From the NCBI RefSeq assembly GCF_004006315.1, contig NZ_CP026530.1, forward strand, positions 1,662,001-1,726,000: a stretch of DNA of 64,000 bases, read 5' to 3'. The notes under the pieces are model-generated. The model was given only the letters and a program-made list of their open reading frames with translations. It did no database searches and was not told where the DNA came from. The position numbers and the translations under genes are program-made. Source of the DNA: Nautilia sp. PV-1 (GTDB lineage Bacteria > Campylobacterota > Campylobacteria > Campylobacterales > Nautiliaceae). Positions 39,485 through 64,000 of the stretch are shown here, in pieces. The stretch's first letter is position 1, and the number at the start of each line of letters is the position of its first letter.

Positions 39485-39569
39485 GCGGGAGTGGCGGAAC
39501 TGGCAGACGCGCTAGACTTAGGATCTAGTGCCGCAAGGCGTGGAGGTTCGAGTCCTCTCTCCCGCACCA
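39485..39569 (+). tRNA. tRNA-Leu(UAG), last gene before the island
   Basis: Acceptor GCGGGAG/CTCCCGC, anticodon stem CTAGA/TCTAG with loop CTTAGGA (anticodon TAG), a long variable arm (TGCCGCAAGGCGT) as in class II tRNAs, T-loop TTCGAGT and encoded CCA. The island starts right at its 3' end, a usual attachment site for integrating elements. Confidence 0.95.
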
Positions 39570-40761: not shown

Positions 40762-41337
40762 TTAAATACTCTTGATAACACTTAAAACTAAATCAATTTC
40801 TAATATCATTTTTTCTACATTTATTAAATCTTTTATATCTTTAATTTGACGCTCAAAATGTATCTCTTCAAGAGATTTTGTAAGGAAAGCAGGAGATGTG
40901 AATCCAATAAGCCCTCTGTCTTTTTCTTTTTGAGGAAGGAGAGTGTTTTTTAATTCGTTTTCTATTTTTTCCAATATGTTATATTCAGTTTGAGCAGAAT
41001 ATGTAATAAAAGTATGAAGTATTAAATTGCCTACTATTCTCTGACAGTTTATATCTGCATATTTTTTACACAAACCTACATATTTTTTATAAAGTTTATG
41101 AAGTTCATCTAATCTATATTCTACTTTTCTTTTATCAACTTCCGATTTTTCTTCTTTTAAAACATTTACACCTTTTAAAAATTCTTTATCGAACGCATTG
41201 CTGAATAATTTTTTTATATCTTTATGGTCAGGAAATTCTTTTTGGAGGTGAAATAGTAAATCCGTAGAATTATTTTTTGCTTGTATGGAATTTGCCAAAG
41301 CATTTATAACTTTTGAAAACTTTGCTGAACTTCTCAT
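40762..41337 (-). CDS. Hypothetical protein, mostly helical
   Basis: About 191 residues, rich in Lys and Glu and predicted helical, with no membrane segment and no motif I recognise. The start is uncertain: the ATG at 41337 is used, but an ATG at 41379 or a TTG at 41406 is possible, and none has a strong ribosome site. It runs divergently from the VirD4/HerA-like ATPase, so it may be regulated with it. Confidence 0.5.
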   Translation of the reverse strand: MRSSAKFSKVINALANSIQAKNNSTDLLFHLQKEFPDHKDIKKLFSNAFDKEFLKGVNVLKEEKSEVDKRKVEYRLDELHKLYKKYVGLCKKYADINCQRIVGNLILHTFITYSAQTEYNILEKIENELKNTLLPQKEKDRGLIGFTSPAFLTKSLEEIHFERQIKDIKDLINVEKMILEIDLVLSVIKSI

Positions 41338-41428
41338 AATCTTTAATTTTATCAAAAAATACTTTCTTTTTTCAACCATACAATTGAATTTAAACTTCTC
41401 TTGCAAAAAAATTCAAAAGGAGTTAAAA

Positions 41429-47024: not shown

Positions 47025-48737
47025 ATGAGTTATTTTAGTAGAACTATAAAAGATATTATTTCTGATATAGATAAAAAAAATATTCTACTTCCAGCTATTC
47101 AAAGAGAATTTGTGTGGGACACAGAACAAATTGAAAATCTATTTGATAGTCTAATGAGAGGTTATCCAATAGGAACATTTCTATTTTGGAAAATAGACAA
47201 TCCACAAGAAAAAGGCGAATTTTATGAATTTATTAGAATTTATAGTGAAAAAGAAAAAACACATAATTTAAAAGCTAATTTAAATCTAGATAAATCTATT
47301 TTTGCTGTATTAGATGGACAACAAAGATTAACTTCTCTTTATATAGGTTTATTAGGAGAATTTGAAGTAAAAGAAAGATATAAAAGAAATTATGTAAAGA
47401 AAAAATTATATTTAAATCTTTTACATAAAAATAATACCGAAAATATAGAAAAAATATATGACTTTAGATTTTTATCAGAAGAAGAAGTTAAAAAATTAAA
47501 TAACACAACAGAATATTTATGGTTTGAAGTTGGAAAGATTTTACAATATAATGAAGAAAAGTTAATGAGATTTAAATATAGTTTAGAAATTCAAGATATG
47601 GAAAAATTTTTATTAATAGAAACAAACTTACTAAGATTAATGAATGTTATAAATAAAGAACAAGTTATTAACTACTATGAAGAAACAAATGAAGATTTAA
47701 ATGAAGTTTTGAATATTTTTGTTAGGGTAAATAGTGGAGGAACAAAACTTAGTTATTCAGATTTACTTTTATCTATTGCTACTTCTAAATGGAAAGATAA
47801 CGCAAGAGAAAAAATTATTGAGTTAAGAAAAGATTTAAATGAATTTGGTTTCAATTTTGATAAAGATTTTATACTTAAATCAGCTTTAATGTTAAGTGAT
47901 ATTGATGTTAAATTTAGACTTAGAAATTTCAATAGTGATAATATGAGAAAAATTGAGGATAATTGGGATAATATAGAGAAATATTTACAATTAGCTGTTG
48001 AGTTGGTTAAACTGTTAGGATTTGATGAAAAAAGATTAAGTGCAAATAATGCTGTTATCCCAATAGCTTATTATTTATATTTTAAAAAATATGAAAAAAG
48101 TTTTTTACATTCTGATAAATATACAAATGAAAGAAAACAAATCAGAGAATGGTTAGTTAAATCTTTACTAAAAAGAGTTTTCAGCGGTCAGTCTGATGAA
48201 GTTTTGAAAGTTATTAGAGAAGCTATAAGAAATAGTCAATCAAATAACTTTCCAATAAATGAAATTAATGAAAATGTAAAAAAAATTAATATAAGTAAAA
48301 GTATTGAATTTGACGACGATGATATTGAATACTTATTAAATTATTCTTATGGAAAACCTTTTGCATTTACAATATTGTCTTTAATATACGAAAATATAGA
48401 TTTCAGTAAAAATATATTTCATATAGACCATATCTTTCCAAAAAGTTTGAAAAATAAAAAGAAAATTTTTAAAGGTTTAGGCATTAGTGAAGAGCAAATC
48501 AAAGAAATAAAAGAAAAAATTGACTTGATTCCAAATTTACAACTTTTAAAAGGAACAATTAATCAGGAAAAAAATGATAAAAACTTTAAAGATTGGTTTA
48601 ATAATTTACCTGATAAAGAAAAATATAAACAAGAACATTTTATTCCGGACATTGAATTAGATATAAAAAATTTTTTGGAGTTTTTTGAAAAAAGAAAAAA
48701 TTTATTAAAAAGTAAATTGAAAAGTGTTCTATCTTAA
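47025..48737 (+). CDS. GmrSD-like DUF262/DUF1524 protein
   Basis: A 570-residue protein. The N-terminal DUF262 domain has LPAIQREFVWD (about residues 22-32), GYPIGTFLFW and the ParB-like DGQQRLTSL (97-105). The C-terminal HNH domain has HIDHIFPKSL and, 40 residues on, NLQLLKGTINQEKND. Fused GmrS-GmrD enzymes are type IV restriction systems that cut modified (often glucosylated) phage DNA using NTP. All motifs look intact. It has its own ribosome site AAAAGGAG and is very AT-rich. Confidence 0.88.
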   Translation: MSYFSRTIKDIISDIDKKNILLPAIQREFVWDTEQIENLFDSLMRGYPIGTFLFWKIDNPQEKGEFYEFIRIYSEKEKTHNLKANLNLDKSIFAVLDGQQRLTSLYIGLLGEFEVKERYKRNYVKKKLYLNLLHKNNTENIEKIYDFRFLSEEEVKKLNNTTEYLWFEVGKILQYNEEKLMRFKYSLEIQDMEKFLLIETNLLRLMNVINKEQVINYYEETNEDLNEVLNIFVRVNSGGTKLSYSDLLLSIATSKWKDNAREKIIELRKDLNEFGFNFDKDFILKSALMLSDIDVKFRLRNFNSDNMRKIEDNWDNIEKYLQLAVELVKLLGFDEKRLSANNAVIPIAYYLYFKKYEKSFLHSDKYTNERKQIREWLVKSLLKRVFSGQSDEVLKVIREAIRNSQSNNFPINEINENVKKINISKSIEFDDDDIEYLLNYSYGKPFAFTILSLIYENIDFSKNIFHIDHIFPKSLKNKKKIFKGLGISEEQIKEIKEKIDLIPNLQLLKGTINQEKNDKNFKDWFNNLPDKEKYKQEHFIPDIELDIKNFLEFFEKRKNLLKSKLKSVLS

Positions 48738-49259: not shown

Positions 49260-50786
49260 ATGAAAAAGGTTTTGTTTATTTTATTGATTGTGGTTGGACT
49301 TTTTGCAAATAATTTTGAAAAATACTTTAATATGGCACAAAATTATTACTGGTTAAGTATTGATGAGGGGATAAAAAGCAGTGTGTGGTTTAAAACAAAA
49401 AAATATTTAGCTCTTGCCGAAAAAGAATTAAAAAAAGAACCGAGTAAGCAAAATTTAAAAAAATTAAACGCTTTAAAAGACGAGGTAAATACGTTTTATT
49501 TAACAAAATACTACACAATGGACGGATATTTTCCGATGTTGAAACTTGTGTCAACTTCGTTTTTTTTATTTCCAAAAAAATCAAGACAGCATACACTGGC
49601 AAAACCGGCTGATTTTATTGCCGTGGAAAATGCGTCTGAAAGTTTAACCGACAGGCTTAAAACGGTAGTTCAAAACCATGTGTTTTTTAATTCGTCCAAC
49701 CCTTATTGGAATGAGATTGCGTTTGAAATATTTAACGCAAACGGTAAATATTACGCACATTTAACGGAAGAACCCAAAGAAATCTTAAGCGATAAAGAAT
49801 TAAAAAATTTTTACTCAAACAATATTACCCCGGATATTATCAACAAACTTCTTAAATATGTAAATAAATCAAAAGTTTATATTGTAAGAATCGAAAAAAC
49901 GCCTCTTGAAAAAAACGACATGTATGTCACGGCATACGGGGAAGTTTATACAAAAAACGGATACAATAAAGACAAAAGCAGTATAACTTTCGGATATTCA
50001 ATTGATGAAAGGGGGAAATGGCCTGTACTTATTTTAGTTCATATTTTGCTTTTGGGACTGGTGTTGTTTCTTACCGCTTATTTTGTCAAAAAAACACAAA
50101 ACAGAAGTTTATATCTTATCGTCCTTATCGGATTCACAGTAGGAAGGGTGTTGCCTTGGGTAATAGTCCCGAGTATAGAAAGTTTTATGCCAAACGGGGA
50201 TTTAAACGTTTTATATACCATTTGGTGGGTTGTGTTGGTAGGTATTGCGATAATACTTGCACCTATATATGCCATGGATTTGATATATAAAAAAATACAA
50301 AACTACATAAAACTTCCTTCAATCGCCGGTAAAGGCGGGATAATAGGATTAAGTATAAGTGCGGGGGTGCTCGGATATCTTTTTGTGCCTTATATATTTA
50401 CTTACGGCGATGTTTTAAGCGTTTGGGAAAACCTGTTGTATTTCGGACTGTTTTCATTAGCGGTTCTGTTTTCCGGGTATGTAAGCGGAAAAATATTCGA
50501 TAAAAGTGATAAAACGGAAGAATATTATATTATCGTTTTTGTAATTACAAGCGCTTTGTTGTTTGTATCGCTTGTACATACGGATTTGATTTGGCTTGCC
50601 GTATCAAGTATTTTAACGATAATTGCTTCATTTTTGGTCATTAGAATGAAAAAAAGCGAATTTGTAAAAGAAGTTAAACAAAAATTTGAATCTGTGGAAG
50701 ATATTGAAAAAGGCTTACATCAGGAAAATTATTATGAATTTGAATATTATAACGATTTGATTCAAAAAACGGGGGTAAAAAAATGA
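49260..50786 (+). CDS. Receptor-like membrane protein with a large extracytoplasmic domain
   Basis: A 508-residue protein. Residues 1-17 are a signal peptide or signal anchor (MKKVLFILLIVVGLFANN). Residues about 20-250 have no membrane segment and should lie outside the cytoplasm. Seven hydrophobic segments follow (about 255-276, 283-303, 318-342, 359-380, 391-412, 422-440, 443-461), then a short charged tail. This looks like a 7-TM receptor layout; no family was recognised. First gene of a four-gene operon, overlapping the STAND gene as ATGA. The start is the ATG after AGGGAAAG; a longer frame runs back into the zinc-knuckle gene. Confidence 0.75.
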   Translation: MKKVLFILLIVVGLFANNFEKYFNMAQNYYWLSIDEGIKSSVWFKTKKYLALAEKELKKEPSKQNLKKLNALKDEVNTFYLTKYYTMDGYFPMLKLVSTSFFLFPKKSRQHTLAKPADFIAVENASESLTDRLKTVVQNHVFFNSSNPYWNEIAFEIFNANGKYYAHLTEEPKEILSDKELKNFYSNNITPDIINKLLKYVNKSKVYIVRIEKTPLEKNDMYVTAYGEVYTKNGYNKDKSSITFGYSIDERGKWPVLILVHILLLGLVLFLTAYFVKKTQNRSLYLIVLIGFTVGRVLPWVIVPSIESFMPNGDLNVLYTIWWVVLVGIAIILAPIYAMDLIYKKIQNYIKLPSIAGKGGIIGLSISAGVLGYLFVPYIFTYGDVLSVWENLLYFGLFSLAVLFSGYVSGKIFDKSDKTEEYYIIVFVITSALLFVSLVHTDLIWLAVSSILTIIASFLVIRMKKSEFVKEVKQKFESVEDIEKGLHQENYYEFEYYNDLIQKTGVKK

Positions 50787-52897
50787 AACATATAGCGCTA
50801 TTAGGGGAAGGCGGAGTAGGAAAAACTACCACCGCCCAAAAACTGATTAAGGATTTAAAACCTAAAATCGTAATTTCAGGGGAATGTCCAAAAGAATCGA
50901 ATCCTTATGATTTGTTTTACAATATGCTTGATTCTTTTTTTGAAATAGATTTGTTTAATAAAAGGGAATCCAACGAACTGGTCGACCAGGTATTGGAAAT
51001 GGCCGGAAGTATTATGTTAGGTCCCATAGCCGGGTTTATGTCAGGTAAAAATGATATGTCAATTTCAAAACAAGATATTTTTATAGCCATTAAAAATAAA
51101 TTTTGGGAATTCAAAGAAGCCGTCGTTTTTATAGATGACATACAATGGATTGACGATGCAAGCAAGGAACTCCTTAAATTTTTATTTGAAGAGCTTAAAG
51201 ATAGCGATTTGTTTTTTGTAATAACATCGAGGGAAAAAGAAATATTGGATGAACTCGGTCTTGAAAACGTTTTTGAATTAAAAGGTTTGGATAAAGTCCA
51301 ACAGTTTGAGTTTTTAAAAAACAATTTTTATCTATCTGACGAAGTGACGGAATGGATTATAAACTGGATAGACGAAGAAAATGCAACTCCGCTGGGGTTG
51401 GTTAATGTGGTTTCGAGTTTATACAGAAAAAATTACCTTGTTAAATCGGAATACGGTTATGTTTTCAGTGAAGAATTTAATCCCGATTTACCAAGTGTCC
51501 CCGATAATATAAAAGAGGATATTAAAGAGATTTTTGAAACTATGCCGGAATACAAAGAAATACTTTCACTTGCGGCAATAATCGGCAAAGAGTTTGATGT
51601 ATCCGTTTTAGCTGACGCCCTTGATATGTCGGTAATTAAAATGACAAATCTTTTATATGAAATTTCAAAAAAAACAAATCTGGTTTATGATGTTTTGAAT
51701 AAAGATAATATTTTTTCTTTTAAATCGCAAATACTGGTGGATGCTATAAAAGAACTCATTAATTATACAGATAAATCGTTTTTGGAAGCAACAGCACCGC
51801 AGATTATAAGATTTTACAATCAAATTATAGCCGAGGCAATGGAGGAAAACAATTATTCCGATATTCAAATTGCCAATTTTTATTACGGAGCGGGTAAAAC
51901 CGTATTACATAAAAATTTCGAATATCAGTTAAAGGCCGCAAGAGCGTGCAAAAATATATTTGAATTTGAAAAGGCCGACAAATATATAGTAAATGCCACG
52001 ACTCTTCTTCAACTGGTGGATAAAAAAGAGGAAGTGGAAGAACTTAAACTGTTAATTGAGGCCGACAGACAGTTTGTTAGGGGAAATATAGATTTGGATT
52101 TTACGAACAGACTGATTGCCAAAACGACCAAAAACTCTTCTGATGAATTAAAAATAGCTACAACCAGAGCAGCTTATAATTCGGGCAGGTTTGACAGAAG
52201 CTATTTTGAAAAATGTTATGAACTGGCTGAAAATTATCTTATTCCGAGCGAAAACAAGTATACAAAAGCCGAAGGTTATCATTTTGCCGCTTTAAGTTTG
52301 GATAACACTCCTGAAAATAAAGAGAAAAAACATAAATATTTTACGGAGGCACTGAAACTTTCAAAAGACAATAAACCTTTATATTCCCAAATAGCTAATT
52401 CTTATGCCGGATTTTTATCTTTTGGTGAAAATCATGAAAAACTGCTTGCAAAAGACTTATTTATTGAAAGTATAGAAATTAAAGAAAACTTACCGGTAAA
52501 AGATTTACCGGGACTTGCAAGGGCATACGGAGGACTTGGGAGGCTTTATCTGTTTTGGGACCCTTGCAATTGTGATAAAGCAATTAAATATTTTGAAAAA
52601 GATTTACAAATCAGTAAAGAATTAAAAGACGAGTTTGGTATTTCAAACATGTATTCGCTTCTTGGTATGGCTTACAGACTCAAAGGAGATTGTGAAAAAG
52701 CAAAAGAATATTATGATAAATCTCTTGAACTCAAACACAATAAAATAGACATATTCGCATCAATATTCGGAAAAATCGCTTGTGGTAGCGGTGAATACGA
52801 CAGAGCAAAAGAGTTTATAAAAGAATATGGCGAACCGCCGGTATTTACTTATAGCTTCTTAAATGATGAAGATAAAGAAAAATTGGGATTAAAATGA
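50783..52897 (+). CDS. STAND-type NTPase with a TPR-like C-terminus
   Basis: A 704-residue protein. The P-loop GEGGVGKTT is at residues 8-16, Walker B VVFIDDIQWIDD at 114-125 and the arginine sensor FVITSREKE at about 145-153; a winged-helix-like region (about 250-340) follows, then helical repeats. Clear TPR patterns lie near 560-690 (ARAYGGLGRLYLFW, SNMYSLLGMAYRLKGDCEKAKEYYDKSLEL). STAND proteins switch on oligomerisation when they sense a trigger, as in Avs defence proteins and MalT regulators. No effector is fused, so the output is probably a neighbour in the operon. Overlaps both neighbours by 4 bp. Confidence 0.82.
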   Translation: MKHIALLGEGGVGKTTTAQKLIKDLKPKIVISGECPKESNPYDLFYNMLDSFFEIDLFNKRESNELVDQVLEMAGSIMLGPIAGFMSGKNDMSISKQDIFIAIKNKFWEFKEAVVFIDDIQWIDDASKELLKFLFEELKDSDLFFVITSREKEILDELGLENVFELKGLDKVQQFEFLKNNFYLSDEVTEWIINWIDEENATPLGLVNVVSSLYRKNYLVKSEYGYVFSEEFNPDLPSVPDNIKEDIKEIFETMPEYKEILSLAAIIGKEFDVSVLADALDMSVIKMTNLLYEISKKTNLVYDVLNKDNIFSFKSQILVDAIKELINYTDKSFLEATAPQIIRFYNQIIAEAMEENNYSDIQIANFYYGAGKTVLHKNFEYQLKAARACKNIFEFEKADKYIVNATTLLQLVDKKEEVEELKLLIEADRQFVRGNIDLDFTNRLIAKTTKNSSDELKIATTRAAYNSGRFDRSYFEKCYELAENYLIPSENKYTKAEGYHFAALSLDNTPENKEKKHKYFTEALKLSKDNKPLYSQIANSYAGFLSFGENHEKLLAKDLFIESIEIKENLPVKDLPGLARAYGGLGRLYLFWDPCNCDKAIKYFEKDLQISKELKDEFGISNMYSLLGMAYRLKGDCEKAKEYYDKSLELKHNKIDIFASIFGKIACGSGEYDRAKEFIKEYGEPPVFTYSFLNDEDKEKLGLK

Positions 52898-53823
52898 AAA
52901 TAGTTTTTGACCCGTATAAAAAAGAGGCAGATAAAAATGAAATTTTAATAGGGCTTGGGAACTGCGAAAAATGTATAAACAAAAACGAAAAATTTGATTC
53001 ATGTGCCGAGTTTTTAGTTCATAATCCAATAAAATACGGCGGGGAAAAAATCGTAATAGAAGATTTTTCTCCCGATACGGTAATTACCATTTATATGTTG
53101 ATTAACGGAAAAATTCCCAAAAAATATATTGATTACGCTACTAAATGGGAGGTCGGAGAGAGCGATAGGGACGTTTTTAAAAGTTACGGGGTGTTGCAAA
53201 ACGCTTTGATTAATTCAATTGATGGCAATGAAAGCGTTAAAGTTGAAAAATCACTTGAATTTTTGGATTTTTTAATCAAAAACGATTATGATTTAGACAA
53301 TATTCCTTCAAATGACAATCCTTTGTATAAACTCGCTTTTAAAAAACTTCAAAATGAATATAAAAAATTTGACGAAACACTTAAAAACGCGGAAATTTAC
53401 ACTTTGAAAATCAACGGAAGAAAAGTTAACGCCGTATTTTTGGATAATGTAAGCGTAACTCCACTCGTTAAACTGCTTCTTCGTCAAAAGTTTGAATTTA
53501 TAGCTTCGTTTAATGAAAAATATAAAGGCGCGGGAAATGACGTGGTGATTTCCGTCTCACCCGAGAGCGGACTTAATTTAAAAGAGTTGTGGGAAAATAT
53601 TGAAAAAGCCGAAACCGAAAAATGGCAGGGGAAAAGACCAAGCGACAATCCCAGGAAAATAGTGTCAACAGATAAATGGAACGAACCGTGGTGGGATGAT
53701 ATGGGAAAATACACCCTTATTGCCGCGCCTAAAAAAACAGGGGAGATGTTTGGAAGCAAACTTGATTATGATGAAGTAAAAAGAATAATTTTACAAACTT
53801 ATAAAGGGGAAAGAGATGAATGA
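52894..53823 (+). CDS. Unrecognised 309-residue operon protein
   Basis: No family recognised with confidence. It has a Cys pair and a third Cys near the start (NCEKCINKNEKFDSC), then SPDTVITIYMLINGKIPKKYIDYATKWEVGESD and, near the end, FIASFNEKYKGAGNDVVISVSPESGLNLKELW and a tryptophan-rich WNEPWWDD. The spread of Asp/Ser motifs and an alpha/beta core vaguely recalls DHH-type phosphoesterases, but the DHH triad is not there. Translational coupling to the STAND gene (ATGA) and to the large gene downstream (8-bp overlap) argues for a shared complex or pathway. Confidence 0.65.
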   Translation: MKIVFDPYKKEADKNEILIGLGNCEKCINKNEKFDSCAEFLVHNPIKYGGEKIVIEDFSPDTVITIYMLINGKIPKKYIDYATKWEVGESDRDVFKSYGVLQNALINSIDGNESVKVEKSLEFLDFLIKNDYDLDNIPSNDNPLYKLAFKKLQNEYKKFDETLKNAEIYTLKINGRKVNAVFLDNVSVTPLVKLLLRQKFEFIASFNEKYKGAGNDVVISVSPESGLNLKELWENIEKAETEKWQGKRPSDNPRKIVSTDKWNEPWWDDMGKYTLIAAPKKTGEMFGSKLDYDEVKRIILQTYKGERDE

Positions 53824-56800
53824 TTTAATTGTAAAATATCCGTCACTTGTGGCCAGACCGTATATGATGATAAAAGACGATTTACAAAAAAAGGATATGC
53901 AAAGATTTTGGTTTGAAAATACAATAAGCTTTTTGGCGACTGTAGTGGGAGCGGAACTTATTGCATGGTATAAGGAACTGAAAAACAAAGAAGATAAAAG
54001 CGAAAAAGAACTTGAAATAATAAAAAAACTTCAAAATCATCCGAGTCTTACAAATGTGGGGCTTGAACATATGAGCCTTGGTAAATGGGTGATGATGTTA
54101 AGGGAAACCGTTAAAATTTTAAAAGAATATAATGTTGATGTGGTATGTCCTGAGATACTGGATTTTTACAATAAAGAAAATGAAGCAATTATCAATAAAC
54201 TCGTAACAATCAGAAACAACGACGCTCACGGAGAACCTATACCAAAAGACAGACTTGAGACCGAACTTTCCAAAAGACAGCAGATGATTGACAAACTTGT
54301 TGAAAATCTTTCTTTTTTACAAAATTACAAGCTTTTAATGCCGGAAAAAATTGAGTTTGAAGGAAACAGACAGCTTTATCTCGTAAAAGAGTTTACAGGA
54401 AATAATATTATAACTTCAAGAGAGGAACTTTCCTTTAATCCGAGACTCAATGATTTGATTTTAATTAATAAAGATAAATTTGTATCTCTTATTCCCAATA
54501 TCGTATATTTGGGAGTTGTGGATGAATCAAAAAGTTTTCTTGGAATTTTGAGTAAATTTGTAGATAAAGACAAAAAAATTGCGAAATATTTAAATTTAGA
54601 GGGAAGCGGAGAAATTGATTACCGAAACGCTATAGAGTATTATCAAATTGACTTTTTGGAAGAGAGAAAACATTTCGATGAGATATATTCCGACCCTGAA
54701 AGCTTTAAGGTTAATTTGGATATTGATTTTAAATTTGAAGACGAAAGTATTTATATTAATCAGGAAAGTTCTTTTAAATTAATTATTGATAATAAAAAAT
54801 CAACGGACCTTGAATCACTGCAAATAAAATTTGAAATTCCGGATATTATGAAAATAACACATCTGCCGGAGAATATAGACAATTTAAAAGATGCAAGCAT
54901 AATCAATAATCAGTTAATTTTGGAATTTAATAAAATAGGTGACGAAGTTATAGAAATTGAAGATATAAAATTCACAATCGATACACAGGGATTCTTTACC
55001 CTAGAAAGAGGTATCGCAACATATAAATATTATAAAACGGTTGCCGAAAAAGATGCGGATATTTTGACAACGGAAGAGATAGAATTCAGTGGCGGAAGTT
55101 TAGAGGTTATAAATCCTGCAAGTAAAGATAAAATAGTCCCGGTTATTAATGTTTATAAAAGATTTCTCGATACTGAAGGGAATGAAATAGAACATATTAA
55201 AATCGGAGAGGATTTTATATTTGAAGTCAGAATCAAAAACATCGGTTTTTCAAGCGCAAAAGACGTAATAGTGGATGTTTTGTTTCCGGAAGGGCTTAAT
55301 CTGAAAAAAGGAAAGGAAAGTATCAGAATTTCACAGTTAAATCCGCTCGAAGAGAAAATCTTTCAGTATGTGTTTTATTCCAAAAAACCGAATATTTATA
55401 CAATTGCGATGCAAAACGTACTTTATTACGATTTAAATAAAAAAAGATATTTTACGCAGTGCAGTGACGAACAGTTTATAATAGTAAGAAGCGATTTACT
55501 TAAAGAGTTTAAATTCAAAATTGAAGAATTTATAGAAGATTTATATATAGATGAAAACGAACAAAAAGAGATTGATAAGCTTATTAAAGAGGCTGAAGAA
55601 AAACTTGGGATTGACGGAAAAAGCTTTTACAAAGAAGCGGAGTTTGAAGCTGTCAGAAATATTGTTAAAGAGATTATTGAAAAAATAGCTTCAAAAAAAC
55701 AGCTTACAATTAATGAAAATATCTATCTAGAAAGTAAAAGGGACAGCAAATTTACAGGTGAAAAACCAAGAAAATTTTTGGTTTATTCGGTAGGAGAATT
55801 TCCGTTTTTTGCAATAAATCTTGACGATTTGGAATTTTACGGACTTGAAACGAATATAAATAAAAGATTTGACAAAATTCAAAGAAAACTTGCAAGGGTA
55901 AATTCGGCTTTTGGTGTATTAGAACATATGGTTGATTATGAAACAGTCAGAAGCAGTGAAGAATACGGAGTTCCGTTTTTTAACCAGTGGATTAATATGA
56001 TTCTTTCTAAAATTGAAAAAGAGTATCTTTTATGGAATAAAATCAGAAAAGAGATAGAAAAAACGTTTGATATAGAATTGAAATTCGGCTCCGGTGATAT
56101 GTATACCAGTGATTTGAAATTTCATCTGTTTATGCAAAGAAGCAATCCTAATACGTATTATTTTAAAATTACGGCTAACAACAAATTTAAAAAATATATT
56201 TCAAAAGCGGACGTATATCTTTTACAAAATATAAACAAAGAAAATAGAAGTTACACAGAAGAGCCTGAAAGACTTTCTCATTTTTGGATTATTACGGATA
56301 AAAAAACAGTGAATCCGGCAATAAAAATGAAAGTGAAAAATGAGAGCGATATTCCGAAATTCATAAATAAAGCAAAAGAGCTTTATAAGGATGTTTTATA
56401 TACGGAATCCCTTTATCTGGTAAGCGAATTTGAAAACGAAGAGTTAAATGAATTCGTAAAAGAATTAAATAATAAAGGATTTTATTTAAAAGAAATAAAT
56501 GATTTCGGTAAAAAAATAGGAATATTTAATTTTGAGGACAATTTAAGCAAAACAGAATCAAAAGATGCAATTTCTTATTTAATACCTGTAAGGAAATGGT
56601 TTGACATTGCCATTAAAACATATTTTGATATAAACGACCTAAAAGATTACGTATTGGTTCAAAGATTTACATGGTCGGGAAGCGGACCTTTGTATATGTT
56701 AAAGGTTAAATCTCCAAGAGAAGAGATTTTAACTAAAACACTTGATTATATATTAAAAGTTTCTGAGAATTACAGTAAAGATAAACTGTTCATATGGCCT

Positions 56801-57514
56801 GAACCTGTTCAAGGTGAAATCATTAATAATTTTGCAAAAGTGGAATATGGGATGTTGACTGTATTTAAAGCAATAGCTGAGGGAAAAACTAAAGTGAATG
56901 AAGTAATTGAATATTTTCCTGAAAAAGAGGAGTTTAATTATTTTTTAAAAAGGCTGAATCAATTGGAAAATCAATATAAAATAAAACCGCCTTTATATAT
57001 AGAAAATAATAAAGTTAAATTGTATGAAGAATATTTGAATTCATTTGAGAATATCAAAAAAATCAATCCTGATTTTCTAGTTGGTGAAGGAATAGGATAT
57101 TATAGAATAGTTTCCTTAAAATTACTTCCATTATTGAATGTTAAATTAAATATAGGTGATTCATGGGCTGAAAGGTATATAAAATTGAATAACAGTGAAG
57201 ATATTAAAGCTGTTATACCATATATTAGCTATAAAAAAGGTTTAACTGTAATAGCTGGAATGGAGTTTAAAGGAGTGAAAGAAAAAGAAGAATTTATGGA
57301 TTATGCAAAACAATTTAAGTTTGATACTGAAATGGATATATTTTACGGAATACGCTCAAATGACCCGAAAATCGAGCTAAAAAAGGAACTTTCCATTAAA
57401 AATATAGAACAAAACAAAGAAATGTTGGCAAACGAAATAAATCACTTTTTTAAAGAAATGGATAGACTTTTGAAAGAAAAGTTTAATGTGTCTATTTTTG
57501 AATTAACAAATTGA
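53816..57514 (+). CDS. Large multidomain protein with a HEPN-like domain and CARDB-like domains
   Basis: A 1232-residue soluble protein. Residues about 1-180 are helical with the motif Arg133-N-N-D-A-His138 (R-x4-H), the mark of HEPN ribonuclease domains. Residues about 300-560 form two beta-rich CARDB/DUF11-like domains (IGEDFIFEVRIKNIGFSSAKDVIVDVLFPEGLNL). Around 565-600 is an EF-hand-like stretch (YIDENEQKEIDKLIKEAEEKLG). The remainder (600-1232) is not recognised. It is the last gene of the coupled operon. If HEPN is active, it would be the RNA-cutting effector, with CARDB parts for binding; that is inference. Confidence 0.65.
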   Translation: MNDLIVKYPSLVARPYMMIKDDLQKKDMQRFWFENTISFLATVVGAELIAWYKELKNKEDKSEKELEIIKKLQNHPSLTNVGLEHMSLGKWVMMLRETVKILKEYNVDVVCPEILDFYNKENEAIINKLVTIRNNDAHGEPIPKDRLETELSKRQQMIDKLVENLSFLQNYKLLMPEKIEFEGNRQLYLVKEFTGNNIITSREELSFNPRLNDLILINKDKFVSLIPNIVYLGVVDESKSFLGILSKFVDKDKKIAKYLNLEGSGEIDYRNAIEYYQIDFLEERKHFDEIYSDPESFKVNLDIDFKFEDESIYINQESSFKLIIDNKKSTDLESLQIKFEIPDIMKITHLPENIDNLKDASIINNQLILEFNKIGDEVIEIEDIKFTIDTQGFFTLERGIATYKYYKTVAEKDADILTTEEIEFSGGSLEVINPASKDKIVPVINVYKRFLDTEGNEIEHIKIGEDFIFEVRIKNIGFSSAKDVIVDVLFPEGLNLKKGKESIRISQLNPLEEKIFQYVFYSKKPNIYTIAMQNVLYYDLNKKRYFTQCSDEQFIIVRSDLLKEFKFKIEEFIEDLYIDENEQKEIDKLIKEAEEKLGIDGKSFYKEAEFEAVRNIVKEIIEKIASKKQLTINENIYLESKRDSKFTGEKPRKFLVYSVGEFPFFAINLDDLEFYGLETNINKRFDKIQRKLARVNSAFGVLEHMVDYETVRSSEEYGVPFFNQWINMILSKIEKEYLLWNKIRKEIEKTFDIELKFGSGDMYTSDLKFHLFMQRSNPNTYYFKITANNKFKKYISKADVYLLQNINKENRSYTEEPERLSHFWIITDKKTVNPAIKMKVKNESDIPKFINKAKELYKDVLYTESLYLVSEFENEELNEFVKELNNKGFYLKEINDFGKKIGIFNFEDNLSKTESKDAISYLIPVRKWFDIAIKTYFDINDLKDYVLVQRFTWSGSGPLYMLKVKSPREEILTKTLDYILKVSENYSKDKLFIWPEPVQGEIINNFAKVEYGMLTVFKAIAEGKTKVNEVIEYFPEKEEFNYFLKRLNQLENQYKIKPPLYIENNKVKLYEEYLNSFENIKKINPDFLVGEGIGYYRIVSLKLLPLLNVKLNIGDSWAERYIKLNNSEDIKAVIPYISYKKGLTVIAGMEFKGVKEKEEFMDYAKQFKFDTEMDIFYGIRSNDPKIELKKELSIKNIEQNKEMLANEINHFFKEMDRLLKEKFNVSIFELTN

Positions 57515-57542: not shown

Positions 57543-58838
57543 AGACTGTTAGAAATTCCGTGTCAGTCTAGATAAAATAACAAAGAAGAAAGGACTGAAA
57601 TGGAAAAGTTTGATTTTGAAAAAGCTGTTAAGGAGTTACTTTCAGGTAAAAAAATAGGAGGTAAAGACGGAGTATTGGCTCCGCTCATAAAAGAACTTGT
57701 AGAAGCTGCACTTGAAGCTGAGATTGAATCCCACATAGCAGATGAAGTATTGCAAAGTAAAAAACAGAAGAAACGGTTACAACAGAAAAACAGTAAAATC
57801 TTCAAGCGGTGAATTTGAACTTGCTACTCCAAGAGACAGAGAAGGAAATTTTGAGCCTCAAATAGTAAAGAAACATCAAACTACAATCAGTGACGAAATA
57901 GAAGAAAAAATTTTATCCATGTATGCTTTAGGAATGAGCTACAGGGATATTAAATCTCATATAGAGGAGATATATCAAATATCCATTTCAACAGCTACAA
58001 TCAATACAATAACGGATAAAATTATAACCAAAGTCAAAGAATGGCAGTCAAGACCGTTAGAATCAATTTATCCTTTTATTTTTATGGACGCAATTCATTA
58101 TAAAATCAAAAACAACGGAAAATATATAAGTAAAGCAGTATATACGATATTGGAAGTAAATTTACAAGGTAAAAAAGAGATATTGGGATTATATCTCAGT
58201 GAAAGTGAAGGAGCGAATTTCTGGCTTTAGGTTTTAAGTGATTTAAGCAACAGAGGTGTTAAAGACATACTTATTGCAAGCATAGACGGTTTAAAAGGAT
58301 TTCCCGAAGCCATTAACTCAATATATCCGAATACAGAGGTTCAGTTATGTGTTCATCAGATAAGAAATTCTTTAAAATATGTGGCTTCCAAAAACCAAAA
58401 AGAGTTTATGAAAGATTTAAAAAAAGTATATCAGGCTGTATCTAAAGAACAGGCCGAAACTGAACTTGACAGACTTGAAGAAAAATGGGAAGACAAATAT
58501 CCAATCGTTATTAAATCATGGAGAAACAAGTGGAATAATCTTTCTAATTATTTCAAATACCCGGAATCCATAAGAAAAGTAATATATACCACCAATATCA
58601 TTGAATACGTCCATAGACAATTCAGGAAACTCACTAAAACCAAAGGTGCTTTTCCGAATGAAGACAGCTTATTGAAATTACTCTATATAGGTATTCAAAA
58701 TGCCCAGAAAAAATGGACTATGCCGATTAGAAACTGGAATCTGACACTCTCTCAGCTGGCTATTTTCTTTGAAGGAAGATTGGATGATGCTTTAAATCTA
58801 TGATATAATTTCCTTAGCTAACACGGAATTATGAACGG
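57543..58838. mobile_element. IS256-family insertion sequence, decayed
   Basis: About 1.3 kb. Left end AGAAATTCCGTGTCA (57551-57565), right end carrying AATTCCGTGT inverted (58821-58830). A second copy of the left end lies 26 bp outside (57525-57539), with the same flanking GACT, so the left tip is duplicated. No target duplication could be identified. It separates the accessory island from the replication module. Confidence 0.75.
57600..58803 (+). pseudogene. IS256-family transposase, frameshifted and with an amber stop
   Basis: Taken together the pieces give a 400-residue Mutator-type transposase: FMDAIH (first Asp), ASIDGLKGFPEAI (second Asp), CVHQIRNSLKY and LEEKWEDKYP (Glu). The first break is one extra A in an A6 run at 57759-57764, between ADEVLQSK and NRRNGYN. 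The second is TAG at 58228-58230 after GANFWL, where CAG (Gln) is expected. The frame is otherwise open to 58803. With two lesions it cannot be active. Confidence 0.9.
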
Positions 58839-58844
58839 TTTTAC

Positions 58845-59099
58845 CTAATAATCTGATTGATTTATATATTGTTTTACAAAATGATAAACATGATAATATT
58901 TAATTTCAAATTCAATATTATATTCATACAGCATAAAATTTATTATTGTTACTATATGTTTAATCTCGAATTCATCTTTTATTAAATCTCTAATAAAATC
59001 TTGCAATACACTACAAACGGTAATTCCCCATAAGTGACCTTCAAAATCCTTTAAAATCAACATTCTTTCAATAAACTGTTTATTGGATAAATGTTTCAT
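58845..59099 (-). CDS. Hypothetical small protein
   Basis: An 84-residue protein (MKHLSNKQFIERMLILKDFEGHLWG) of unknown family, with mixed hydrophobic and charged residues and no membrane segment. A good ribosome site, AAAAGGAG, lies 5 nt before the ATG. Its stop codon touches the right end of the IS, so the IS may have trimmed its C-terminus. First gene of the plasmid-like module. Confidence 0.6.
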   Translation of the reverse strand: MKHLSNKQFIERMLILKDFEGHLWGITVCSVLQDFIRDLIKDEFEIKHIVTIINFMLYEYNIEFEIKYYHVYHFVKQYINQSDY

Positions 59100-59190
59100 A
59101 ACCACTCCTTTTATCTCTTTTATATATATTTATATCTTTTAAGAGCAAAAAATTTTAGAATTTAATAAAAATATGAAAAATTTTTGATTT

Positions 59191-59330
59191 TTAATTCAAT
59201 TTCGTTAAATTTTTTTAAATTTTATTTAATTCCGTTTAATTTCATTTAAGTTTATTAAATTATTTCAAACATATAAGAGAGTGTCTATTCAAGAAGAGAA
59301 AAATTTCAATGTTATTTAATAAAATACAAA
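59191..59330. repeat. Origin-like module A: TTAA steps in 10-bp phase and a conserved block
   Basis: TTAA occurs at 59205, 59215, 59226, 59236, 59246 and 59255, intervals 10, 11, 10, 10, 9, which is one per helical turn. A block shared with module B follows: TTTCAA-ACATATAAGAGAGTGTCTATTC and AAGAGAAAAA, ATGTTATTTAA, AAAATACAA (about 59262-59330). Repeats of this kind bind initiators or bend DNA at plasmid origins. No gene lies in 59100-59391. Confidence 0.6.
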
Positions 59331-59356
59331 TAAATACAACAAATTTAACTTTTATT

Positions 59357-59380
59357 AAACATATAAGGAAACATATAAGG
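59357..59380. repeat. Tandem 12-bp repeat AAACATATAAGG x2
   Basis: Two perfect adjacent copies of AAACATATAAGG, and a third partial one (AAACATATAAG) at about 59267-59277 inside module A. A possible binding site for the module's initiator or regulator. Confidence 0.6.
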
Positions 59381-59395
59381 CAAAAAATGCCTTAT
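59375..59395 (-). terminator. Hairpin at the end of the PP-loop gene
   Basis: ATAAGGCA (59375-59382) pairs with TGCCTTAT (59388-59395) around an AAAAA loop, overlapping the stop codon. No T-run follows the stem on the minus strand, so termination is only possible. Confidence 0.45.
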
Positions 59396-60261
59396 GTTGT
59401 ATATGCAAACGCAAATAAACTTTTAGTTTTTTCTGCTTCGTCAATCAATCTTTGTTTTTCTTTTTCCACAAAAAAACGCATTTTTTTACCGTTCCTAACT
59501 TTGTTAACCGCTTCCTCTAATTCAAAAACTCTCTTACGATATTTATCGTCTGCGGCAACTGCTTTAATCTCAACTGTACGTGCACTAACACACGGAAAAC
59601 ATCCAACTCTCTCCATTCCTAACTCTGTATATAAAGGATTCAATTTAAGACCGTTTTGTTTTATATAATTAAACACCTGTTCTTTTGTCCAGGTAAATAT
59701 AGCATTCCAATAAATTACTTTAAATCTATGCTTCTCTATTTCAAAATTTTTAACATTAAAAATATCGTATCTTTCTGCACGTCTATCACTTTCTTCTGCC
59801 CTGATTCCCTGGACAATAATAAAATCTTTTCCTGCTTTTTTCCCTTTTTGTATATAATTTTCAAATAACCATTTTTTAAAAGGAATAATTTTCAGTTCTT
59901 TCGTACAAAATCTACTAACTAAACCTCTTGGAATCCTTTTTTTTCGCACGCATAAATTCTTCATACCTTCAGTTTCAATACGTTCAATTTTTAATCCCAA
60001 TTTTTTTTCAATATAAGTTAAATATTGATAAGTATATTCATGCTCCCATTTTGTATCAAAAAAAAGGATACGGATTCGGTTTTTTTTGTTATACTTTCGT
60101 ATATGGTTTAAAACAAATAAAAGGACAGCTGTGCTGTCTTTACCTCCACTAAACATGATAATAAAATCCCCTACAAACTCTTCTAAATTTACATTTACTG
60201 TTTTTTCTTTTTTGATTTTTTTGGGGGGCTCTTTTTCTTGTAAATTAAATAGTGTTTCCAT
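59392..60261 (-). CDS. PP-loop (PAPS-reductase-like) protein of mobile elements
   Basis: A 289-residue adenine-nucleotide alpha-hydrolase. The PP-loop FSGGKDSTAVLL is at about residues 37-48; further marks are FFDTKWEHEYTYQYL, SRFCTKELKIIPFKKWL, GIRAEESDRRAE and a CFPC pair near the end (GCFPCVSARTVE). It lacks the CysH C-terminal ECGLH-type tail, so it is not a sulfate-assimilation enzyme. Relatives are common on phages and plasmids and include DndC, which puts sulfur into DNA, but no other dnd gene is seen. The ATG at 60261 follows AAAAGGAG. A TTGTCAA-N5-TTGACAA dyad lies just upstream. Confidence 0.78.
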   Translation of the reverse strand: METLFNLQEKEPPKKIKKEKTVNVNLEEFVGDFIIMFSGGKDSTAVLLFVLNHIRKYNKKNRIRILFFDTKWEHEYTYQYLTYIEKKLGLKIERIETEGMKNLCVRKKRIPRGLVSRFCTKELKIIPFKKWLFENYIQKGKKAGKDFIIVQGIRAEESDRRAERYDIFNVKNFEIEKHRFKVIYWNAIFTWTKEQVFNYIKQNGLKLNPLYTELGMERVGCFPCVSARTVEIKAVAADDKYRKRVFELEEAVNKVRNGKKMRFFVEKEKQRLIDEAEKTKSLFAFAYTT

Positions 60262-60288
60262 TGTCACTCCTTTTAATTTTTCTAATTT

Positions 60289-60311
60289 TTTTGTCAAATT
60301 ATTTGACAAAA
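60289..60311. promoter_or_regulatory. Operator-like dyad 1 (TTGTCAA-N5-TTGACAA)
   Basis: A perfect dyad: TTTGTCAAAT (60290-60299), one central base, ATTTGACAAA (60301-60310). It is 28 bp upstream of the PP-loop gene. Its 19-bp core TTGTCAA-N5-TTGACAA is found again at 60478 and 63286. Confidence 0.65.
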
Positions 60312-60477
60312 GTATCTGACACCAAAACAAATAAGCTCTGTACTTCACAAACATCACTCGATATATATTTTTTTATATATCGGTTGGCAAAATTCTCTTC
60401 TATACAAAAGAATCTTACCGTATTTTGAACATAAAAGTAAAGCAAATAATTTGACAAAAGTCCGCAGTTATGGTGTT

Positions 60478-60496
60478 TTGTCAATTATTTTGACAT
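60478..60496. promoter_or_regulatory. Operator-like dyad 2 (TTGTCAA-N5-TTGACAT)
   Basis: TTGTCAA (60478-60484), TTATT, TTGACAT (60490-60496), one mismatch from a perfect dyad. A half-site TTGACAA lies nearby at 60451-60457. This gap (60262-61041) has no convincing gene. Confidence 0.6.
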
Positions 60497-60562
60497 TGAA
60501 AATGAACTAATGGATATTTAAAAAATAAAAAATTAATTTGTAAAATTTTTCAAAAAATTTTT

Positions 60563-60725
60563 TTAAAATTTACATCTGGTTTAATTTTTTTAAGTCTGTT
60601 TAATAATATTTAATTTTGTTTAATTCTTTTAAATTTCATTAAAAAACATTAAATTCTTTCAACTATATAACAGAATGTCTATTCGAAAAGAGAAAAAATT
60701 TAATGTTATTTAACAAAATACAACA
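60563..60725. repeat. Origin-like module B: eight TTAA steps in 10-bp phase and a conserved block
   Basis: TTAA at 60581, 60590, 60600, 60610, 60620, 60629, 60639 and 60649: intervals 9, 10, 10, 10, 9, 10, 10. The block shared with module A follows at once: TTTCAA-CTATATAACAGAATGTCTATTC and AAGAGAAAAAA, ATGTTATTTAA, AAAATACAA (60657-60725). The phased part is longer and more regular than in module A. Confidence 0.65.
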
Positions 60726-60748
60726 AAATTTATTTTTCTTAAATAAAA

Positions 60749-60836
60749 TATAATAAAATTGGATTGAACGATGAAAACCGAAACGGAACCTAAAGGAGCG
60801 CACCTAAAGCCTCAATAACCGCTCTTTTTTTTCTTT
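60749..60836 (+). ncRNA. Candidate short transcript with terminator and 15-codon ORF
   Basis: A -10 TATAAT (60749-60754) is followed by a 15-codon frame (60771-60818, MKTETEPKGAHLKPQ), containing the direct repeat ACCTAAAG twice. Then comes a stem GAGCG (60796-60800)/CGCTC (60820-60824) and eight T. The transcript would be about 70 nt. It may be a small RNA or leader peptide controlling replication, placed right after module B. The stem is only 5 bp. Confidence 0.4.
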
Positions 60837-60864
60837 TCCCCTTTTGCTATATATACTTATTAAT

Positions 60865-60898
60865 ACTATGGCGGACATAAAGTCCGCCTATATAGTAT
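60865..60898. other. Strong hairpin between module B and the initiator gene
   Basis: GGCGGAC (60870-60876) pairs with GTCCGCC (60882-60888) around ATAAA, extended by flanking ACTAT/ATAGT. It is GC-rich in very AT-rich DNA. It could end the repC transcript or serve as a single-strand replication signal; it has no T-run. Confidence 0.5.
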
Positions 60899-61041
60899 CT
60901 ATATTTACTATAAATACTATAATATCTTGAACCGACCATTTTATCTGCGTTTTTGGAAAATTTTGTCACCCATTGTTTCTCACAATATTACCCGCAATTT
61001 CCCATACTGTCCCCTCTCATTTTCCTTTGTGGAAAAAAAAA

Positions 61042-61863
61042 TCATCGAACTTTGTTTAATCTTTTTTGCGCCAAATCTGTCCTTACCCACATTTCTTCTA
61101 GTTTATCGTATTTATATGTAGGAATATCAAAATTTTTATGCAAAACGTTAAATGCTTTTTTTATTTTTTCACGTTTTTTTCTTTTGTCCATATTTGTATT
61201 ATTGAGATTAAGTATATCAAACAACAAATCTTCTCTATATTTTTCCCGCCATTTTAATAATTTTCTACCGTTTACATTAAATTTAGTTTTAGACCCCTGC
61301 ATAAAAGCATATAAAAGTATTGCATATTCAGTTCTTCCTGTTAATTCTTTTTCCAATATTAAAAAGTTTCCTAGATTCACCAAGATGCCTTTGTTTATAA
61401 CTGTTTCTATAAACTTTTTATTTGCAAAAATTTCAATTTCTTTATAATCGTTATCATATTTAACATCATATATATATTTTGTCATACGGGCTTTACCGTT
61501 TTTCGTAAAAAACAAGTCTACTTTAGATAATCTTATTATACTTTCTAGAAGCGTTTTTCTGTTAATTTTTTTATTAAGAACCCCTCTTTCTTTTACCAGT
61601 TTAACCAAATCAAATTTCTTTACGGCTGCTTCTTTTCCGTCAACTTCAATTATATCCCAATCTTGTTTTGAATATTCTTTGATAATAAACATTAATGTTA
61701 TTAAATCATACGTATTAAGCGATTCCGGTGCTTTTGCTTTAAAAACCACATTACCCCACTTTCTCTCAATTTCCATTTGTTTTCTTTTTCTAGAGGGAAG
61801 AAAAGGTAAAAAATGCAGCGTTCTATCATCTAATTTACTTTCAAGATTTTTAATAAATTTCAT
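61042..61863 (-). CDS. Replication initiator, RepC-like
   Basis: A 273-residue basic protein with winged-helix character (two helix-rich halves, KRKKREKIKKAFNVLHKNFDIPTYKY near the end). Its length, charge and place right after a RepA-type helicase match RepC of IncQ plasmids, which binds origin iterons. Sequence likeness alone is weak. The ATG at 61863 follows GGTGA and overlaps repA by 14 bp; the longer start at 61914 adds residues inside repA. Confidence 0.65.
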   Translation of the reverse strand: MKFIKNLESKLDDRTLHFLPFLPSRKRKQMEIERKWGNVVFKAKAPESLNTYDLITLMFIIKEYSKQDWDIIEVDGKEAAVKKFDLVKLVKERGVLNKKINRKTLLESIIRLSKVDLFFTKNGKARMTKYIYDVKYDNDYKEIEIFANKKFIETVINKGILVNLGNFLILEKELTGRTEYAILLYAFMQGSKTKFNVNGRKLLKWREKYREDLLFDILNLNNTNMDKRKKREKIKKAFNVLHKNFDIPTYKYDKLEEMWVRTDLAQKRLNKVR

Positions 61864-62809
61864 CGTCGTCACCTTCAAATTCAGTACAATTACAAACATC
61901 CAGCACTCCATCAAAACCTTTAACTAAATAAATATCTTCGGGAATCGCTGCATAATTAACTTTGGCAAAAGTTACTTTTACAAAATGTTTTCTCATTTCT
62001 TCCTGAATTCTTAATTCTTTTGCCTCATCCTTACTTAAAACACTCATATTAATTAATAATCTTGCATTATCCACTAGTGCACTAGCCCCGCGCATTGCAG
62101 TTTGTCCATTTGATTTTTCCAAAATAGCTGTCTTGTTTTGATGATGCAATAAAAGTATAGTTGTACCCGTTTTATTGCAGATTTCTTCTAGTATTTTTAG
62201 TATCTCAGACATCTTAGCGTTATTATTTTCATCTTCTCCATGTAATCGGCGAAACGTATCTATAATAATTAATCTTGATTTTTGTCCTAATTTCAGCAAT
62301 ATATTATATGCTTTATCCTGTAATTCACCATCCTTATATAAATTAAAATTTTTTCCATAAAGCCCGTATACCATTAAATTTTTATCAATCGATTGCAAAG
62401 CTTTATATCCATTTGCTTCGCCAAACTCTCTTATAATTTTTCTACTGATTTTTTGTATTCTGTTTTCCAGAATTTCTGTTGGGTCTTCCAAGTTGAGATA
62501 ACAAACAATTCCTCGCTGGTGTGAATTGTTTATTACTGGAATAAAATTGTAAGTTTTTGTTGTATCCGCCAAGCTAAAAGCAAGATGTAAAGCAAGCATA
62601 CTTTTTCCAGTACCACCTGCGCTGCTTATAAAACCAATAGTCCCGCTCTTTAAACCCGTAAACACAAAATCCAGCGGTGGCAATTCTTTTTTAAATATAT
62701 TTAATACCGATAAAGGCTCAGTCCCCTTTTTTTGGATATTTTTATTTTGTGAATTTTCAATGTGTTCATTAACAACATTATTTTTGAATAAATTGTTGTT
62801 TCCGCTCAT
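61850..62809 (-). CDS. RepA-type hexameric replicative helicase
   Basis: A 319-residue RecA/DnaB-fold ATPase. Walker A is ISSAGGTGKSMLALHLAFSLA (about residues 58-75), Walker B LIIIDTFRRLHGEDENN, the following motif TTILLLHHQNK, then AMRGASALVDNARLL. This is the RSF1010 RepA / AAA_25 pattern. The start ATG at 62809 has AAGGTGG 5 nt upstream; a GTG at 62818 overlaps that site. It is cotranscribed with repC and the small gene upstream. Confidence 0.85.
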   Translation of the reverse strand: MSGNNNLFKNNVVNEHIENSQNKNIQKKGTEPLSVLNIFKKELPPLDFVFTGLKSGTIGFISSAGGTGKSMLALHLAFSLADTTKTYNFIPVINNSHQRGIVCYLNLEDPTEILENRIQKISRKIIREFGEANGYKALQSIDKNLMVYGLYGKNFNLYKDGELQDKAYNILLKLGQKSRLIIIDTFRRLHGEDENNNAKMSEILKILEEICNKTGTTILLLHHQNKTAILEKSNGQTAMRGASALVDNARLLINMSVLSKDEAKELRIQEEMRKHFVKVTFAKVNYAAIPEDIYLVKGFDGVLDVCNCTEFEGDDDEIY

Positions 62810-62819
62810 CTTATCCACC

Positions 62820-63200
62820 TTATATATCCAATATAAAATATTCTCTTATTTGATTCATGTCTTTGGATTCTGAGCCTTCATCAACATTATTTAAATTAGA
62901 AACTTCCAATTCTTCAAGCCAATCCTGAGTATTACTTATTTTTATACTTCTTTTTTCGGTTTTAAAGTTTGTTATTCGGTTTTGTAAATTTCTCAATTTT
63001 TTAGGATTACCACTTATACTTAGAAAATCCCAAACATTTATTTCCTTTTCAGCTTCAAATCCAAAAGCCGCCTCGGCTTCGGAAAACCTATTCAAAAGTT
63101 TATTCTCTAGCTTTTCATACAGATTCAACCCTTTTTTAAAAGTTTCATCATCAACCTTTACATCATATACCTCAAAATTTTCCAAACATACAGTTTGCAT
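62820..63200 (-). CDS. Hypothetical protein upstream of repA
   Basis: A 126-residue acidic, helical protein (MQTVCLENFEVYDVKVDDETF) with no family recognised. AAGGAG lies 5 nt before the ATG. It is first in the repA-repC transcript, 10 bp from repA, and a TTGTCAA dyad lies 86 bp upstream. Its position is that of the small regulator gene in IncQ rep operons, but sequence does not show a DNA-binding motif. Confidence 0.6.
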   Translation of the reverse strand: MQTVCLENFEVYDVKVDDETFKKGLNLYEKLENKLLNRFSEAEAAFGFEAEKEINVWDFLSISGNPKKLRNLQNRITNFKTEKRSIKISNTQDWLEELEVSNLNNVDEGSESKDMNQIREYFILDI

Positions 63201-63285
63201 TATTACTCCTTTTCTACTCAATTATAATAAAAAAGTCGCATATAAAACTTATAAAAAACTCCTCGAAATTCCCGTAATATCGGAT

Positions 63286-63304
63286 TTGTCAATATAATTG
63301 ACAA
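63286..63304. promoter_or_regulatory. Operator-like dyad 3 (TTGTCAA-N5-TTGACAA)
   Basis: TTGTCAA (63286-63292), TATAA, TTGACAA (63298-63304), a perfect dyad. It lies between the divergent rep operon and the primase gene, where it could control both. The rest of this gap (63201-63506) is AT-rich with no gene seen. Confidence 0.65.
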
Positions 63305-63506
63305 TTTATATGAAGTAATGAAAGTTTTGTATGCAGAATCAATATTTTAAAAATTTTTCAAAAATTTCTTTTTTAAGACTTCTAAATAGCTTTTTTTTAC
63401 ATTTTCTCTTGAATTTAGCTTAAACAATATTTTTTTTTAGATTTTTTATAAGAATTAAATAAAAAGCGAGCTCTAACAATATAAATATATTAAAAAGGAG
63501 TTTACT

Positions 63507-64000
63507 ATGAAACAATTTGATGATAACTTTTTGCAATTCATCAGAGATAATATTCCGGTAGAAGATATTTTGGAAAATATATTTAACTTTCAAAAAGATA
63601 TACAAAGAAGTTCAATTAACTCACAGGTATATCTCACAGATAAAGGAAAAAAGATTATTACATTTCATAAAAATGGAGCTAATGCCTGGTTTACACTTAA
63701 TGGAGTCAAAGGAGACAACATAAAACTTGTACAATTTCTCGAAGATTGTGATTTTGTAACAGCTGTAAAAAAACTTGCTGATTTTTACAACATAAATCCC
63801 CTAAACTATAACTATAGTTTTATTAATCTTAATAAAAAGCCGACTTTACAAAGAGCTGTTGAAAGAAAAGAAAAAATTAAAAAAGAAATAGCGGAAGCTG
63901 AAAAAAATTCTAAAAAAGCTATCGAGAATTATAAAAATCTTAGAATAAACAAGCACTTCACGAACGATATTCGTGGCATTTCAAAAGCATTACTAAATTA
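63507..64000 (+). CDS. Primase-like protein with a CHC2-type domain lacking zinc cysteines (partial)
   Basis: At least 164 residues, running off the window (the last two bases, TA, could be part of a stop). The part around ITFHKNGANAWFTLNGVKGDNIKLVQFLEDCDFVTAVKKLADFY follows the fold of CHC2 domains in plasmid and phage primases (DUF3991/toprim type), but the zinc Cys/His residues are missing. A basic coiled-coil stretch follows. The ATG has AAAAAGGAG 6 nt upstream. It fits a plasmid replication or mobilisation primase; the toprim part, if present, is outside. Confidence 0.6.
   Translation, partial: MKQFDDNFLQFIRDNIPVEDILENIFNFQKDIQRSSINSQVYLTDKGKKIITFHKNGANAWFTLNGVKGDNIKLVQFLEDCDFVTAVKKLADFYNINPLNYNYSFINLNKKPTLQRAVERKEKIKKEIAEAEKNSKKAIENYKNLRINKHFTNDIRGISKALLN

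Follow-up and report, generated by a model that had tools for sequence, protein, structure and literature searches.

A 10-bp-phased TTAA array beside IncQ-like replication genes in Nautilia sp. PV-1 as a candidate DNA unwinding element

An array of eight TTAA steps lies about 385 bp downstream of a repC-like gene in the window (the whole 64,000-nucleotide stretch of Nautilia sp. PV-1 DNA that was analysed), and the reading we favor, at about even confidence, is that it serves an integrated IncQ-like element as its DNA unwinding element, the AT-rich part of a replication origin that melts easily. A preliminary description of this DNA had proposed a replication origin with all TTAA steps on one face of the helix. 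The easily melted, origin-like region by the RepC-like gene is retained here, with support from the RepA identity, the low-stability segments, the conserved hairpins and the presence of the array in a relative, and strict one-face phasing is given up. Neither the second array listed below nor the enclosing element appeared in that description.

60563..60657, + strand: TTAA array R2, eight TTAA at 9-10 bp spacing (60581-60649), with an extra TTAA at 60563
59190..59261, + strand: second TTAA array R1, six steps (59205-59255) at spacings of 10, 11, 10, 10 and 9

On recount, all eight TTAA positions previously given for R2 (60581, 60590, 60600, 60610, 60620, 60629, 60639 and 60649) were exact, and the view that they are too regular for chance was borne out by 5000 dinucleotide-preserving shuffles of 60520-60770, in which the longest TTAA chain with steps 9-10 bp apart had a mean length of 1.6 and a maximum of 5, with none of the 5000 attaining the observed eight. 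Autocorrelation, which had been suggested as a check, gave self-similarity peaks at lags 10, 20 and 30 (z 4.2, 4.0 and 3.8), and period-10 self-similarity is present in all three arrays considered here, namely R2, R1 and the single array of a relative, G003. Chains of at least four TTAA occur nowhere in the window other than in R2 and in the second array (59205-59255). When 21 Nautiliaceae genomes were searched for four TTAA at approximately 10-bp spacing, 11 of the 12 matches in the host genome fell within R2 or R1, as did four of the six matches in G003 within its own array. In ordinary noncoding DNA here, TTAA does not recur at 9-11 bp (8 pairs against ~10 expected), and TTAA phasing as a genome-wide habit of the host was therefore rejected.

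The claim that all steps lie on one helix face proved too strong. Mean TTAA spacing in R2 is 9.71 bp, which corresponds to a drift of ~190 degrees over eight steps at 10.5 bp per turn, so that the eight steps rotate by about half a turn and are not all on one side; the helical-phase resultant is 0.53 for R2 and 0.88 for R1. A CRISPR or coding origin of the array was ruled out, as the DNA is AT-rich and noncoding, without conserved spacers or frame. A 58-bp match at position 909165 of the host genome was likewise set aside as AT-rich similarity only, without a TTAA chain, and no Rfam family matched within 58800-63600 at E values up to 1.

The genes next to the array point to a replication module:

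61042..61872, - strand: RepC-like initiator, 276 aa (Pfam RepC E 0.042; hhalign to IncQ RepC E 2.3e-4)
61850..62818, - strand: RepA, IncQ RepA-family helicase, overlapping repC
62820..63221, - strand: small conserved protein, ahead of repA
63507..64000, + strand: start of a DnaG-type primase (CHC2-like plus Toprim), continuing past the window (L009:1508-2611)

By its sequence, RepA is clearly an IncQ RepA-type helicase, sharing 32-34% identity with IncQ RepA over 85-91% of the protein (E 1e-38) and matching AAA_25 (E 1e-27). The RepC-like protein appears to be distantly homologous to IncQ RepC. This homology is weak: the hhalign comparison used three aligned IncQ RepC proteins as its target, with negative controls at E 0.29 and 0.28; the protein had no NCBIfam match and no match among plasmid records, and its structure model was too poor for use (pLDDT 38). 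The order of repA followed by an overlapping repC matches that of IncQ plasmids (RSF1010, the IncQ-2 plasmid pRAS3.2, and pGXY040), which also share the RepA-family helicase. Unlike IncQ plasmids, which use a RepB/RepB' primase that is often fused to MobA, the element has a primase of the DnaG/Toprim type, and no RepB primase was found among the proteins scanned. Because the primase differs, the iteron signal is weak and the RepC match is distant, we refer to the replicon as IncQ-like and not as IncQ.

Between the array and repC are further features that resemble an origin:

60838..60963, no strand assigned: noncoding core separating repC from the array, with two hairpins and 95-98% identity to the relative
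60870-60888: GGCGGACataaaGTCCGCC, within the noncoding core
about 60892-60920, - strand: hairpin adjoining GGCGGACataaaGTCCGCC, with a 12-bp stem
60965..61035, + strand: 22-bp direct-repeat signal, candidate iterons (CACCC.. / TACCC.. / CCCC..), in both genomes

The two adjacent hairpins of the core have folding z scores of -4.0 and -5.1, on the two strands, and the GGCGGAC hairpin occurs only once in the window. Among all 100-bp stretches in 82 kb, those at 60514-60613 and 59120-59219 rank second and third for low stability, and they overlap R2 and R1, respectively. The lag-22 signal at 60965-61035 is weak (z 3.1 and 3.7, with 1% of all windows scoring as high). The 15-bp IncQ motif CTGCGCCTAGTGGAG is absent (best match, 5 mismatches); as a control, it is found exactly in one of three IncQ plasmids and is absent from the examined stretches of pRAS3.2 and pGXY040. 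Matches to DnaA boxes all carry a single mismatch, and the sole conserved one lies inside the repC gene, so DnaA boxes lend no support.

The array is duplicated in the host, and the copies are embedded in a longer repeat:

59195..59335, + strand: left copy of direct repeat family D1, 141 bp
60589..60729, + strand: right copy of D1, 141 bp, array plus downstream block
59392..60357, - strand: PAPS-reductase-like gene, between R1 and R2, absent from the relative G003
60658..60730, + strand: conserved block 3' of the array, TTTCAAC-ATATAA-...-TGTCTATT-...-AATGTTATTTAA, from a three-way alignment
58845..59105, - strand: small helical protein, 86 aa, adjoining R1 and also found beside the single array of G003

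The two 141-bp copies are 79% identical, each takes in an array and the conserved downstream block, and together they bracket a 1.4-kb segment with the PAPS-reductase-like gene, whose product is kin to the SspD, BrxP and DndC families and has a 49% identical homolog in G015. The relative G003 (Nautiliaceae MAG contig JAMOTL010000006.1) shares the replication module (89.5% DNA identity) but has a single array and no PAPS-reductase gene. Its array contains six TTAA at spacings of 10, 11, 10, 10 and 9, identical to those of R1, and is a mosaic, with its left part like R1 and its right part like R2. This mosaic is consistent with recombination between the array copies, whichever its direction, since loss of the PAPS gene in the relative and gain in the host would give the same arrangement. 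Pieces of a Mutator-family (IS256-like) transposase at 57600-58803 adjoin the left end of the conserved module, and the relative has a different Mutator-family member at the same place in opposite orientation.

R2 and the G003 array differ at 24% of positions over 62 bp, and the six phased TTAA are kept in both; under random substitution at this divergence, the six-step chain survives in only ~0.1% of simulations. TTAA cores differ less than spacers when G003 is compared with R1 (0/24 versus 7/38) and with R2 (4/24 versus 11/38), a modest test of constraint as it involves only three arrays, two of them in one genome. Identity to the relative is lower in the array (78%) than in the hairpin core (95-98%), with coding DNA at ~90% and the block at 60658..60730 at 86%. 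No TTAA array was found at three Helicobacter-like RepA-type loci. In related genomes of another family in the order (L029 and L030, probably Helicobacter), RepA-type loci with a repA-repC-like order lack the TTAA array. Virus contigs contained no relatives of RepC, RepA, the 86-aa protein or two conserved DNA motifs.

The replication module forms part of the right arm of a larger element, for which the following sites were identified:

39556..39569, + strand: left attachment core TCTCTCCCGCACCA, at the 3' end of tRNA-Leu(tag)
67553-67566: right copy of the 14-bp core TCTCTCCCGCACCA, beyond the window, in L009
60291..60309, no strand assigned: palindrome TTGTCAAnnnnnTTGACAA, putative repressor operator
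60478..60496, no strand assigned: putative operator, second copy, 1 mismatch to TTGTCAAnnnnnTTGACAA
63286..63304, no strand assigned: putative operator between the rep operon and the primase gene
67451: putative operator by the integrase

Homology to the relative ends at 67566, at TCTCTCCCGCACCA, and the tRNA-Leu gene (39485-39569) has this core as its 3' terminus; these boundaries point to a 28-kb element integrated at tRNA-Leu(tag) (39556-67566). Two hallmarks of integrated elements are present, a tyrosine integrase and a direct repeat at the tRNA 3' end. The right arm encodes the tyrosine integrase, an AAA ATPase, the DnaG-type primase, the small protein, RepA and the RepC-like protein; in the relative, the right arm occupies a different chromosomal site, adjoining lolA- and secA-like genes. 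The palindrome TTGTCAAnnnnnTTGACAA, at 0-1 mismatch, occurs four times in 82 kb, with the copies at 60291 and 60478 at the 5' end of the PAPS gene, and the relative keeps two copies, one at the integrase and one at the primase/rep genes. As the palindrome is common to the integrase, primase/rep and PAPS genes, a single repressor may control all of them. The left part of the element carries a coupling-protein-like gene and several defense-related genes. The former (41285-42886) is a VirD4/TraG-like homolog without an obvious relaxase nearby. The cargo includes a GmrSD-type nuclease (47025-48737) with a strong match to the PADLOC candidate HEC-05 (E 1e-204), and a run of large genes at 50783-57514, encoding a STAND-like ATPase with TPR repeats, a 309-aa protein and a 1232-aa protein with no assigned family, is possibly a defense locus.

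For the array as an unwinding element, we infer the origin function, the protein binding and the order of steps as follows. The RepC-like protein would bind close to its own gene; the hairpin core or its immediate surroundings are the probable target, and the phased array perhaps a further one. The array would open next, RepA helicase would then be loaded onto its single strands, and synthesis would be started by the element's DnaG-type primase, possibly at the hairpins. With TpA steps recurring regularly every 10 bp, the duplex would be weak and flexible, and a protein coat could build up along the array. R1 would be a partial copy without the hairpin core that came or went with the PAPS gene by recombination between array copies. 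Origins of IncQ-3 plasmids contain iterons, an A+T-rich region and palindromes (PMC7557826), and an A+T-rich segment and palindromes near repC are both present at the putative origin here; moreover, the 22-bp iterons of pGXY040 likewise begin at the end of repC. The DNA unwinding elements of iteron plasmids, such as the 13-mers of RK2, are also AT-rich, repeated, of low stability and near initiator sites, although the repeats here are ~10 bp long, number eight and belong to an array that is carried twice. In contrast to IncQ oriV, where iterons are 20-22 bp, only a weak 22-bp repeat is found, and a long TTAA array phased at 10 bp makes up the A+T-rich part; the replicon also differs from IncQ plasmids in being integrated at tRNA-Leu by a tyrosine integrase. 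Against the origin reading are the chromosomal location of the element, the lower conservation of the array than of the hairpin core, the weak iteron signal, the absence of CTGCGCCTAGTGGAG, the weak RepC homology and the Helicobacter-like loci without the array.

The main rival to the unwinding element, which we regard as unlikely, is that the array is the upstream region of a promoter on the + strand that would produce a short RNA toward the 3' end of repC. A TATAA, a possible -10 box, lies in the conserved block at a fixed distance from the array in all three copies, and housekeeping promoters of Campylobacterota have a periodic A/T-rich stretch in place of a -35 box; for Campylobacter jejuni, where such promoters are typical, the periodic A/T pattern is documented together with TGxTATAAT (PMC3656092). 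The array resembles such Campylobacterota sigma-70 promoters in having T/A stretches at about every helical turn followed by TATAA, but it extends over about seven to eight turns, far beyond the ~50-bp promoter motif, and the TG of the extended -10 is absent. Similar phasing was not found at 32 other TATAAT sites or in the noncoding DNA of the host genome, the predicted R2 RNA is no more structured than shuffles (z -0.9), and the terminator-like hairpin is missing from the relative. We find it rather harder to believe that the array consists of 10-bp iterons (TTTAATTNNN units) bound cooperatively by the RepC-like protein, as had been suggested in the preliminary description. The location by repC, the period-10 self-similarity of all three arrays and the better retention of TTAA cores than of spacers between G003 and R1 speak for such units; however, known IncQ iterons are 20-22 bp (PMC7557826), the IncQ plasmids examined have 22-bp repeats and none of 10 bp, the spacer letters of the TTTAATTNNN units vary, the self-complementary TTAA gives no clear direction, the phasing drifts by half a turn, and conservation is higher in the hairpin core than in the array. 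A stronger version, in which an initiator related to IncQ RepC would form a continuous filament on one-turn (10-bp) TTAA units and so melt or wrap the origin directly, with R1 as a decoy that limits copy number, seems quite improbable; if true, it would represent an iteron type undescribed for this replicon family.

A further, decidedly unlikely explanation is that the array serves chiefly as a site where gene cassettes land or recombine, or that it is an AT-rich relic with no function today. The 141-bp repeat does bracket a 1.4-kb PAPS segment that is missing from the relative, but homologous recombination between any direct repeats would have the same outcome, and the TTAA steps were retained despite 24% divergence. 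A role of the array as a partition site (centromere), to which a small, ParR-like protein such as the 86-aa neighbor would bind in register, is very doubtful. ParR binds 10-bp direct repeats (PMC4911067), parC of ParMRC likewise consists of tandem ~10-bp units, and the 86-aa helical protein is next to the array in both genomes. Unlike in ParMRC, neither ParM nor a recognizable ParR was found among the element proteins scanned, nor were ParA or TubZ, and the fair structure model of the 86-aa protein (78) has no significant fold match, so that DNA binding by this protein is only a guess.

If the array is the unwinding element that we favor, this would define where the origin lies in a mobile element from deep-sea Nautiliaceae, and IncQ-like replication genes together with a DnaG-type primase would reside in the chromosomes of heat-loving Campylobacterota. 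Such a compact, 10-bp-phased melting element would allow the control of origin opening by TpA spacing to be tested cleanly, and it could provide a replicon for genetic tools in Nautiliaceae and heat-loving Campylobacterota.
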